From the NCBI GenBank assembly GCA_938002655.1, contig CALLAC010000007.1, forward strand, positions 1-64,000: a DNA stretch of 64,000 nt, written 5' to 3'. Source of the DNA: an uncultured Cytophagales bacterium (GTDB lineage Bacteria; Bacteroidota; Bacteroidia; Cytophagales; Thermonemataceae). Of this stretch, positions 24,466 through 27,058 are shown piece by piece (positions within the stretch are counted from its first letter, which is position 1; every line of letters begins with the position of its first letter). Below the pieces are notes generated by a model. It had not been told where the DNA came from. It searched no databases and saw only the letters and a program-made list of their open reading frames with translations. Made by a program: the position numbers and the translations under genes.

Positions 24466-25107
24466 TTATTTTTGAAAAATCGGCTTGGTTTCAGTTTCAA
24501 TCTTTACACCTGTAAGGTCATAACGAAAAACTACTTTTTTTCTTGCAATCTGTTCCAAAATAGGTTTCAAAATGAGTTCTGCATTTTTTTTAGTTTGCTC
24601 CATGATATTACTTTCCAGAGCAGTTTTTTCCACTTGTCTTTCGGCTTCTTTGTAAGCATTTTCAACAAGTTGGGCGTCATCAAAGGTCATAAAGCCAGTT
24701 TTTACTTCATATATCCTGCTATCTTTTTGATTTACTTTTACATAGCAAAGTTCAGGTTTAGGTAGTTGTATGATCATTACGCTATCTTTTTCAAGGATAT
24801 GTTCTTTTTTGACTTTGGTTAAATCAATGCAACCTACTGCCTCGCCCGCTACAATCAGTAGTGTTTTACTATCACCGCCCTGGTACCAGGGTCTTTCTAT
24901 TTTGTACTCCAAAATATCTTTGAAAGTGTATCTGACAAGTTCGAGTTTACCGAGGGCTTCTATTTGCTCCAAAGCAGTTTGATGTTTGATGCTTTCCTTT
25001 TTAGAACTTTCTCCAAAAATACTACCTTTGATGAAATGCCAAGAAATTACTCCTGCCAAGAATAGTAGAATGGCTGTACCTATTTTTATAGCCCATTTGA
25101 CAAGCAT
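24466..25107 (-). CDS. DUF4230 domain protein with N-terminal membrane anchor
   Basis: The 213-residue protein has one N-terminal transmembrane segment (about 7-25), then a soluble DUF4230 domain (about 45-205) facing outside the cytoplasm. Typical features are ELVRYTFKDILEY, LIVAGEAVGCIDLTKVK, DSVMIIQLPKPELCYVKV and a C-terminal helical part AYKEAERQVEKTA followed by AELILKPILEQ. The family is widespread in Bacteroidota and Firmicutes; no function is established. The gene diverges from the ABC ATPase gene across 55 bases that contain a 20-bp tandem duplication. Confidence 0.85.
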   Translation of the reverse strand: MLVKWAIKIGTAILLFLAGVISWHFIKGSIFGESSKKESIKHQTALEQIEALGKLELVRYTFKDILEYKIERPWYQGGDSKTLLIVAGEAVGCIDLTKVKKEHILEKDSVMIIQLPKPELCYVKVNQKDSRIYEVKTGFMTFDDAQLVENAYKEAERQVEKTALESNIMEQTKKNAELILKPILEQIARKKVVFRYDLTGVKIETETKPIFQK

Positions 25108-25109
25108 CG

Positions 25110-25149
25110 GATTTATATGTTAATTTGCAGATTTATATGTTAATTTGCA
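25110..25149. repeat. Tandem 20-bp duplication in a divergent promoter region
   Basis: GATTTATATGTTAATTTGCA occurs twice in direct succession (25110-25129 and 25130-25149) without a mismatch. Each copy carries TAATTTGC, close to the -7 box, in the orientation of the ABC ATPase gene. TTTG at 25096-25099 lies 21 bases before the first copy's box. Confidence 0.85.
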
Positions 25150-26408: not shown

Positions 26409-26439
26409 AAATAAAAAATTTTGTTTAATTTTTTGAAAA

Positions 26440-26476
26440 AAAAGTTAAACAAAATTTGGATTTTTGTTTAACTTTT
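26440..26476. promoter_or_regulatory. Perfect 15-bp inverted repeat across the sigma-factor promoter
   Basis: AAAAGTTAAACAAAA (26440-26454) and TTTTGTTTAACTTTT (26462-26476) are exact inverse copies separated by seven bases. A third copy with one mismatch, TTTTGTTTAATTTTT, begins at 26419. The -33 box lies in the gap and the -7 box starts three bases after the right arm, so a bound regulator would cover the promoter. Confidence 0.65.
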
Positions 26477-26486
26477 ATTAAATTTG
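26455..26486 (+). promoter_or_regulatory. Promoter of the sigma-factor gene
   Basis: TTTG (26455-26458), 20 bases and TAAATTTG (26479-26486) match the Bacteroidota consensus exactly. Transcription would start near 26493, about 20 bases before the ATG, which fixes the start at 26513. Confidence 0.75.
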
Positions 26487-26512
26487 TGTTCAACAAAACA
26501 ATAGAGGTGATT

Positions 26513-27019
26513 ATGACAGCCCTTGAATTTAACAGCCAGCTAGCACAAGCCATAAAGGCTCTCAAGCCTTTTGCAGTGCGTTTGACCAAAGACTTGGAAG
26601 ATGCTAACGACTTGCTTCAAGATACAATGTATAAAGCCTTCACCAATCAAGAAAAATTTGCTGATGGCACAAATCTGAAAGCATGGCTCTACACAATAAT
26701 GAAAAATACGTTTATTACCAACTATCAAAGAATGGTAAGACGTAAGACGTTCATTGATACCACAGATAACTTACACTATATCAACAGTACGGCAAGTATT
26801 GCTCAGAACGCAGGAGTTTCATCTTTGGCAATGCAAGAAATCACAGAAGCTTTAGATGCCCTTGATGAAGTCTACCGTACACCATTTATGATGTATTTCA
26901 AAGGTTTTAAGTATCACGAAATTGCCGAAAGGTTAGGTATTCCGATTGGTACTGTGAAAAATAGAATTCATATTGCTCGCAAAGAATTGAAAGAGAAACT
27001 CCTGAAATTAGGGTACTAA
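26513..27019 (+). CDS. Small sigma-70 family (ECF-like) RNA polymerase sigma factor
   Basis: The 168-residue protein has only regions 2 and 4. Region 2 includes KDLEDANDLLQDTMYKAF and LKAWLYTIMKNTFITNYQR (core binding and -10 melting). Region 4 includes DEVYRTPFMMYFKGFKYHEIAERLG and IPIGTVKNRIHIARKELKEKL, the helix-turn-helix for -35 recognition. No anti-sigma gene is next to it, which is common for this conserved Bacteroidota group. The start at 26513 is preceded by AGAGGTGA, an uncommon Shine-Dalgarno-like sequence for this phylum. Upstream in-frame codons lie across its own promoter and were rejected. The inverted repeats at the promoter suggest control by a dimeric regulator. Confidence 0.93.
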   Translation: MTALEFNSQLAQAIKALKPFAVRLTKDLEDANDLLQDTMYKAFTNQEKFADGTNLKAWLYTIMKNTFITNYQRMVRRKTFIDTTDNLHYINSTASIAQNAGVSSLAMQEITEALDALDEVYRTPFMMYFKGFKYHEIAERLGIPIGTVKNRIHIARKELKEKLLKLGY

Positions 27020-27028
27020 AACAACAAG

Positions 27029-27058
27029 CCTCATAGTTTTTAGCTATGAGGTTTTTTT
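27029..27058 (+). terminator. Terminator after the sigma-factor gene
   Basis: CCTCATAG (27029-27036) and CTATGAGG (27044-27051) form an 8-bp stem followed by seven T. The convergent lipB gene ends inside this region at 27040, so the hairpin overlaps its last codons. Confidence 0.8.

Follow-up and report, generated by a model that had tools for sequence, protein, structure and literature searches.

A doubled convergent palindrome as the predicted operator of an ECF sigma factor gene and of a candidate light regulon in Bacteroidia

Upstream of a small sigma factor gene of an uncultured Cytophagales bacterium, copies of one 15-bp word are packed around the promoter. Do these copies form an operator, as a first-pass annotation of the DNA had proposed, and, if so, which arrangement of them carries the signal, which protein would read it, and which other genes would be under the same control? 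We addressed these questions by sequence comparison, starting from the window (the whole stretch of 64,000 nucleotides analysed) and extending the analysis to the complete genome assembly, to related genomes, and to the class Bacteroidia.

RESULTS

The sigma factor gene and the boxes at its promoter

The gene (26513-27019, + strand) encodes a small ECF-type sigma factor of 168 aa, starts with ATG, and has AGAGGTG ahead of it. The TTG start at 26456 was a mechanical call of the open reading frame list, rejected in favor of the ATG at 26513. The protein scored above the curated cut-offs of PF04542, PF08281, and TIGR02937 (78 bits for the last, with a cut-off of 43) and below the cut-offs of the narrower sigma families TIGR02985 and NF058625. 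The sigma factor of Raineya sp. SKYG86 is 94% identical to it. Since a terminator-like hairpin (27026-27054, + strand) lies 3' of the gene, the gene is probably monocistronic in this genome. On the upstream side, a -33-like element TTTG (26455-26458, + strand) and a -7-like element TAAATTTG (26479-26486, + strand), 20 bp apart, fit the Bacteroidota promoter consensus, TTTG / TAnnTTTG.

The first-pass annotation counted three copies of TTTTGTTTAACTTTT around this promoter. All three are present, and a weaker, inverted fourth copy had been missed, which brings the count to four boxes. A word search of the window located the exact copies at 26440-26454 on the - strand (box 2, inverted, with its core TTAAACAA at 26445-26452) and at 26462-26476 on the + strand (box 3, core TTGTTTAA at 26464-26471). 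The copy that the annotation had placed just upstream, with one mismatch to the 15-mer, is indeed there (box 1, TTTTGTTTAATTTTT, 26419-26433, + strand, core TTGTTTAA at 26421-26428). Box 4, TTCAACAA, occupies 26489-26496 on the - strand, where the transcription start is predicted.

Boxes 1 and 2 form palindromic unit 1 (26421-26452, spacer N16), and boxes 3 and 4 form palindromic unit 2 (26464-26496, spacer N17). Both units are convergent palindromes of the pattern TTGTTNAA-N16/17-TTNAACAA, and they are placed 43-44 bp, or about four helical turns, from each other. The -33 element falls between the two units, unit 1 being upstream of it; unit 2 lies over the -7 element, with box 4 over the inferred start site. 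Described by their four TnnACA elements, the boxes are again paired convergently, the core centres being 24, 19, and 25 bp apart as calculated from the coordinates. Elsewhere in the window, a 20-bp unit, gatttatatgttaatttgca, is present twice in tandem at 25110-25149, between divergent genes that start at 25107 (- strand) and 25163 (+ strand).

The signal sits in the paired arrangement

In the window, the 15-mer with up to two mismatches was found 11 times against 2.55 expected, a number reached in 0/100 shuffles, and the pattern TTGTTNAA-N15..18-TTNAACAA was found twice against 0.01 expected. Genome-wide, the single 15-mer with one mismatch had 12 matches compared to 10 for its reversed control, i.e., no enrichment. 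The paired pattern TTGTTNAA-N14..20-TTNAACAA had three matches in the 2.64-Mb genome and none for the reversed control. Two of the three are the units of the sigma promoter; the other lies upstream of queD-folE, and with it the genome-wide search for further regulon members that the annotation had suggested yielded a new site. The pairing, not the single word, carries the signal.

The annotation had singled out the two exact copies as a perfect 15-bp inverted repeat flanking the -33 box. The exact copies do flank TTTG, but as a pair they are the junction of two palindromes. Among 59 genomes, this outward-facing pair (boxes 2 and 3) gave 33 forward and 26 reverse matches (control, 21 and 31), and the sigma promoters themselves account for at least 11 of the places listed. 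Being at background level, it was rejected as a functional unit. The convergent pair gave 118 matches in the same 59 genomes, with 32 for the control.

At the class level, the strict palindrome had 75 matches in 119 genomes (its own genome and three of its order included) against four for the control, and it was present in 43 of the 119. Over 159 distinct sites, the half-site consensus was approximately (A/G)TTAAACAAAA, where the core was fixed by the search pattern and the flanking AA (84% and 72%) and the preceding A/G were free. As a separate observation, the palindromes of L194, L195, and L196 (genomes G028 and G057) have 18-bp spacers and a central GAGCTG/CAGCTC and lie beside short genes; judged by eye, they are possibly recombination sites of gene-cassette arrays instead of operators.

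The palindrome is conserved ahead of orthologous genes

We collected 109 orthologous sigma promoters, 80 from a contig search and 29 from relatives. The best palindrome had at most one mismatch in 75 of them (50/80 contig loci and 25/29 relatives), compared to 0.09% of dinucleotide shuffles, and at most two mismatches in 90 (about 2.8% of shuffles). In these 90 promoters, the spacer was N16 in 61 and N17 in 27 (88/90). No palindrome with up to two mismatches was found ahead of paralogous ECF sigma genes (0/20, one per genome in 20 genomes, the own genome included). The annotation had regarded a motif not conserved upstream of orthologous sigma genes as evidence against an operator; footprinting of the upstream region gave the opposite result, with palindrome and spacing kept in most orthologs.

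The promoter architecture was evaluated on 107 distinct promoters, since three of the 29 relatives share their promoter with the 80 contig loci. A unit with up to three mismatches was found in 93/107, and in 61 of these 93 TAnnTTTG separates box 3 from box 4. Among the 61 promoters with this clear -7 element, box 2 (up to two mismatches, within 30 bp) was found in 49, most commonly at a spacing of 12 (24 promoters); the spacings of 20-22 seen in 11 promoters may be due to chance. Box 1 (up to two mismatches) was found in 36 of the 49 promoters having box 2, with a spacer of 16 or 17 in 32 of the 36. In the ortholog consensus, TTG is kept at the -33 position and box 4 reads TTaAACAAAA / TTcAACAAAA.

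Some of the orthologs deserve a separate mention. The sigma genes and promoters of L048 (titled Thalassovita sp., a MAG) and L087 (titled Flavobacterium sp. SUN052) are of the Cytophagales type, and for both records the label or the binning seems questionable. In G022:C11 (L228:4884-5367), where MerR and folE adjoin, the sigma ortholog was matched in two separate pieces.

The genes downstream of the third site in the genome are, judged by their sequences, queD (6-pyruvoyl-tetrahydropterin synthase family) and folE. The palindrome with up to one mismatch was present at 14/29 queD orthologs, a set that includes the own-genome locus L259, which had prompted the test, and from whose 30 loci L274, with 20 bp upstream, was left out; it was present at 0/20 queD paralogs. 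A few of the queD starts in this count are not at the expected codon. At L130:9538-11174 (G000:C18), three genes stand in a row, queD, folE, and a second paralog of queD with 52% identity, and the palindrome is present only at the first queD.

These results bear on two alternatives to an operator. One is that the boxes are a chance repetition in AT-rich intergenic DNA, a concern raised also in the first-pass annotation. The single word, with its 12 genomic matches against 10, behaves as expected from chance, but the palindrome does not: two occurrences against 0.01 expected in the window, conservation in 75/109 sigma promoters, and absence from both sets of paralogs (0/20 and 0/20) make this explanation practically negligible. 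The other is that the boxes belong to the promoter of an alternative sigma factor, e.g., through autoregulation of the sigma gene, and are no repressor operator. TTG and TAnnTTTG are in fact interleaved with the boxes. Nevertheless, the queD-folE palindrome has no TAnnTTTG inside (by eye), the palindrome is symmetric as dimer sites are, and the elements that match the housekeeping consensus fall outside the box cores, all of which renders this reading very improbable.

Genes beside the palindrome in other genomes

We examined 28 class loci with a site (one per genome, 28 of the 75 sites), mostly over 3 kb. They were compared with 15 query genes, among them sigma, MerR, crtI, photolyase, rhodopsin, folE, fasciclin, and DUF4397, which had been picked from the neighbors of sites in the order. 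At least one query gene was matched in 22/28 loci and in 0/20 arbitrary 3-kb stretches, placed by hand in 19 of the same genomes. Sixteen of the 22 loci match a query gene other than fasciclin or DUF4397, and six match those two alone. L335, one of the six unmatched loci, shows by eye TspO and photolyase-related genes, which stand outside the count.

For the order, the neighbors of the sites come from regions picked by hand, mostly among the listed matches of the 59-genome search, in which 30 proteins, also hand-picked, were scanned. They serve as examples, and the weight lies on the counts for the sigma promoters, for the queD and paralog sets, and for the 28 class loci. A photolyase gene lies beside the site of L209 and a photolyase-type FAD domain beside that of L214, while L211 has a rhodopsin gene. 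CrtI-kind desaturases adjoin sites in L224, where the protein scored above the NCBIfam cut-offs, and in L206, L210, L218, and L229, where the match is by PF01593 only. Furthermore, a squalene/phytoene synthase follows the sigma gene in L218, a carotenoid biosynthesis protein is encoded at L206, and a flavin reductase with DUF2452 at L208. Fasciclin genes adjoin the palindrome in L200, L203, L212, L321, and L331, and genes of DUF4397 surface proteins do so in L310, L311, L312, L336, L192, and L199; in L192, the DUF4397 gene is 61 bp from the palindrome on one side and an acyl-CoA dehydrogenase gene is on the other.

To our knowledge, no light role is described for the DUF4397 and fasciclin genes. 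We likewise know of none for the acyl-CoA dehydrogenase of L192, the guanylate kinase of L199, the YkuD of L201, two genes of L205, the AstE/AspA of L215, the methyltransferase of L218, the nitrite reductase of L223, and the kinase of L227. Protein L197_5 had no match in the scan of the 30 hand-picked neighbors, and some palindromes of the order, e.g., those of L193-L196, lie away from light genes.

In the genome under study, the crtB stretch and two PF03441 (photolyase) stretches have no palindrome above chance, the control being single bases shuffled within 200-bp blocks. For this reason, the direct regulon here may consist of the sigma gene and queD-folE only.

On the whole, the sequence evidence strongly supports the prediction that the boxes are an operator controlling the sigma gene. 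The proposal of the first-pass annotation thus gains from three sides: 75/109 orthologs with at most one mismatch, none of the 20 paralogs, and a coherent set of other genes.

A CarH/LitR-like MerR protein is the candidate binder

A MerR gene at G000:C3:50782-51657 is the candidate for the protein that reads the palindrome, on the basis of domain, structure, and co-occurrence matches. Its product scored above cut-off for PF13411 (MerR_1, 56 bits) and PF02607 (B12-binding_2, 33 bits), and it matched the solved CarH structure 5c8d over residues 2-234 with an E value of 1.3e-19. Models of the Rossmann-type B12 domain had no match in the protein at E 0.001. The AdoB12-binding residues reported for CarH are W131, E141, H142, and H177 (PMC11796333), and by a manual position count all four align with identical residues in this MerR. 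Coherently, W-x9-EH and E-x-H were invariant in 30/30 MerR orthologs examined. The lower-ligand motif E/D-x-H-x-x-G is present only in part, because its final G is kept in four of the 30 orthologs, the others having S (23), A (2), or T (1); this genome's MerR has S at that position. As the score for the NCBIfam CarH equivalog NF052513 was 100 bits, below the cut-off of 400, we call the protein CarH/LitR-like and not CarH.

Among 59 genomes, MerR and sigma were both present in 45, sigma only in two, MerR only in two, and neither in 10, with presence cut-offs of 120 bits (sigma) and 200 bits (MerR) chosen after the scores were known, the split sigma of G022 counted as present, and the two sigma-only genomes being 81% and 84% complete. 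The sigma promoter of G005 (L035), a genome that is 81% complete, contains the boxes, and MerR was not found in this genome. In 11/59 genomes and in 22/80 further loci (gaps of 207-580 bp in the latter), the sigma gene is immediately preceded by the MerR gene on the same strand. In the genome under study, MerR, sigma, and crtB are apart from each other. Where the MerR and sigma genes are adjacent, the palindrome stands between them in 8/11 genomes; the other three genomes, all of one genus (G019, G036, and G051), showed no pattern-matching palindrome in the region examined. The number of palindromes also follows the MerR gene: 114 against 28 for the control in the 47 MerR-bearing genomes, and 4 against 4 in the 12, mostly smaller, genomes without it.

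The promoter of the MerR gene itself has the palindrome with up to one mismatch in 2/30 cases, and autoregulation through the same palindrome was consequently rejected as a general feature. Two MerR genes outside this set of 30 promoters (G022 C46 and G043) have an upstream site.

The half-site contains TnnACA, which is described as the CarH core (PMC9304148); this likeness was noticed afterwards, and the motif is short. The A at position 2 of the CarH_Tt site was not enriched in the half-sites (0.34).

It could be argued that the operator is real and serves another transcription factor sharing the regulon, such as a TetR_C_23 protein, with MerR acting elsewhere. TetR_C_23 genes adjoin sites in G023 and G018 (L206 and L208), the two genomes having MerR without sigma; moreover, the MerR promoter is seldom marked and the adjacent MerR-sigma genes of one genus are without a palindrome. 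On the other hand, MerR adjoins sigma in 11/59 and 22/80 of the two sets, and it tracks the enrichment of the sites (114 against 28 with MerR, 4 against 4 without). We consider this alternative quite unlikely and retain the CarH/LitR-like MerR as the candidate binder.

DISCUSSION

A model for the double operator

We propose, with a probability of roughly 75%, that the four boxes together constitute a double operator read by the CarH/LitR-like MerR protein, which would repress the sigma gene in the dark with AdoB12 and release it in the light. The link between the operator and MerR is one of association, and MerR is the presumed binder; repression, B12 binding, and light sensing are proposed by analogy with CarH as described in PMC8156234. 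One MerR dimer would sit on each unit, TTGTTTAA-N16/17-TTAAACAA, and the distance of 43-44 bp between the units, about four helical turns, would favor binding as a tetramer or as two dimers that cooperate. In the dark, the adenosyl-B12-bound MerR on both units would cover the -33/-7 region together with the start site, keeping the ECF sigma gene off. In the light, the cobalt-carbon bond would be broken and the MerR complex would leave the DNA, after which the sigma factor would be made and would turn on photoprotective genes, its presumed targets. Further light-related genes are marked directly by the palindrome: queD-folE in this genome and, in relatives, crtI, photolyase, and rhodopsin genes among others.

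A variant of this model keeps MerR as the binder and changes its role: it could be an activator, or a B12-independent, CarA-like regulator that takes its light input from a partner, and not a repressing B12 photoreceptor. There are precedents: LitR is described as a positive regulator of litS in Streptomyces (PMC12705666), a LOV protein is the partner of class II LitR (PMC9758184), and CarA needs no B12 (PMC8156234). Against it, the four AdoB12-contact residues of CarH are identical here and invariant in the 30 orthologs examined, and the position of unit 2 over the -7 element and the inferred start site suits occlusion. We regard the variant as possible but unlikely, and dark repression by the B12-bound MerR as the preferred reading.

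Comparison with known systems

The closest circuit is LitR-LitS of Streptomyces coelicolor, in which a B12-dependent MerR regulator controls an ECF sigma gene that in turn drives crt genes (PMC12705666). As there, a MerR gene of the CarH/LitR type can adjoin an ECF sigma gene (11/59 genomes and 22/80 further loci), carotenoid genes being next to it in some relatives, and the promoter of the sigma gene would be the target. Unlike that actinobacterial system, MerR, sigma, and crtB are apart in the genome under study, and the likeness is one of gene kinds and circuit.

With CarH of Thermus and Bacillus and CarA/CarH of Myxococcus, the protein shares a MerR DNA-binding part and a B12-binding region, including W-x9-EH and E-x-H, and the operator shares the TnnACA core in the half-site and the large extent overlapping the promoter (PMC8156234 and PMC9304148). 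The CarH operators described in these sources are tandem 11-bp direct repeats, nnnnTnnACAn, at carotenoid promoters, whereas those found here are doubled convergent palindromes with N16/17 at a sigma gene and do not form direct repeats. In sequence and spacing, the operator differs from those of CarH/CarA and probably also from that of LitR-LitS.

The class II LitR regulon of Pseudomonas (PplR1 and PmlR2) includes light-induced photolyase, folE, and cryptochrome-like genes (PMC9758184). It resembles the present set in its gene kinds, and its sites are also paired, over the -35 region and after the start site. The Pseudomonas site is T(G/A)TACA-N12-TGTA(C/T)A, compared to TTGTTTAA-N16/17-TTAAACAA here, and the Pseudomonas protein differs also in being without one B12 domain and in working with a LOV protein.

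The Echinicola cluster merR-rpoE-crtI-crtB places side by side the same gene kinds as the MerR-sigma-crtI loci found here; the part of the source available to us gives a gene list without operator or light regulation (PMC8683446). Among the papers listed in our literature survey, most subscription papers being outside it, we found no described operator for a CarH/LitR protein of Bacteroidota.

Taken by analogy, the system would work like LitR-LitS and show a kinship of gene kinds with the Pseudomonas LitR regulon; its operator layout departs from the direct repeats of CarH sites, with the TnnACA core retained.

A candidate light regulon of the Bacteroidia

Extending the model to the whole class, we lean, with less assurance, toward a Bacteroidia light regulon in which a CarH-type B12 photoreceptor reads doubled convergent palindromes rather than direct repeats, and governs a dedicated ECF sigma gene as well as, by direct control, genes for carotenoids, photolyase, rhodopsin, pterins (queD-folE), fasciclin, and DUF4397 proteins. 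If this is true, convergent palindromes would be a second kind of operator for CarH-type proteins, whose DNA recognition would become directly testable. The regulon could also explain light-induced pigment in bacteria such as Chryseobacterium lacus, for which the mechanism of the light-regulated pigment has been called unknown (PMC7064467). Finally, a simple motif search would predict the light-responsive genes of many Bacteroidota, including those for rhodopsins, DNA repair, and pigments.
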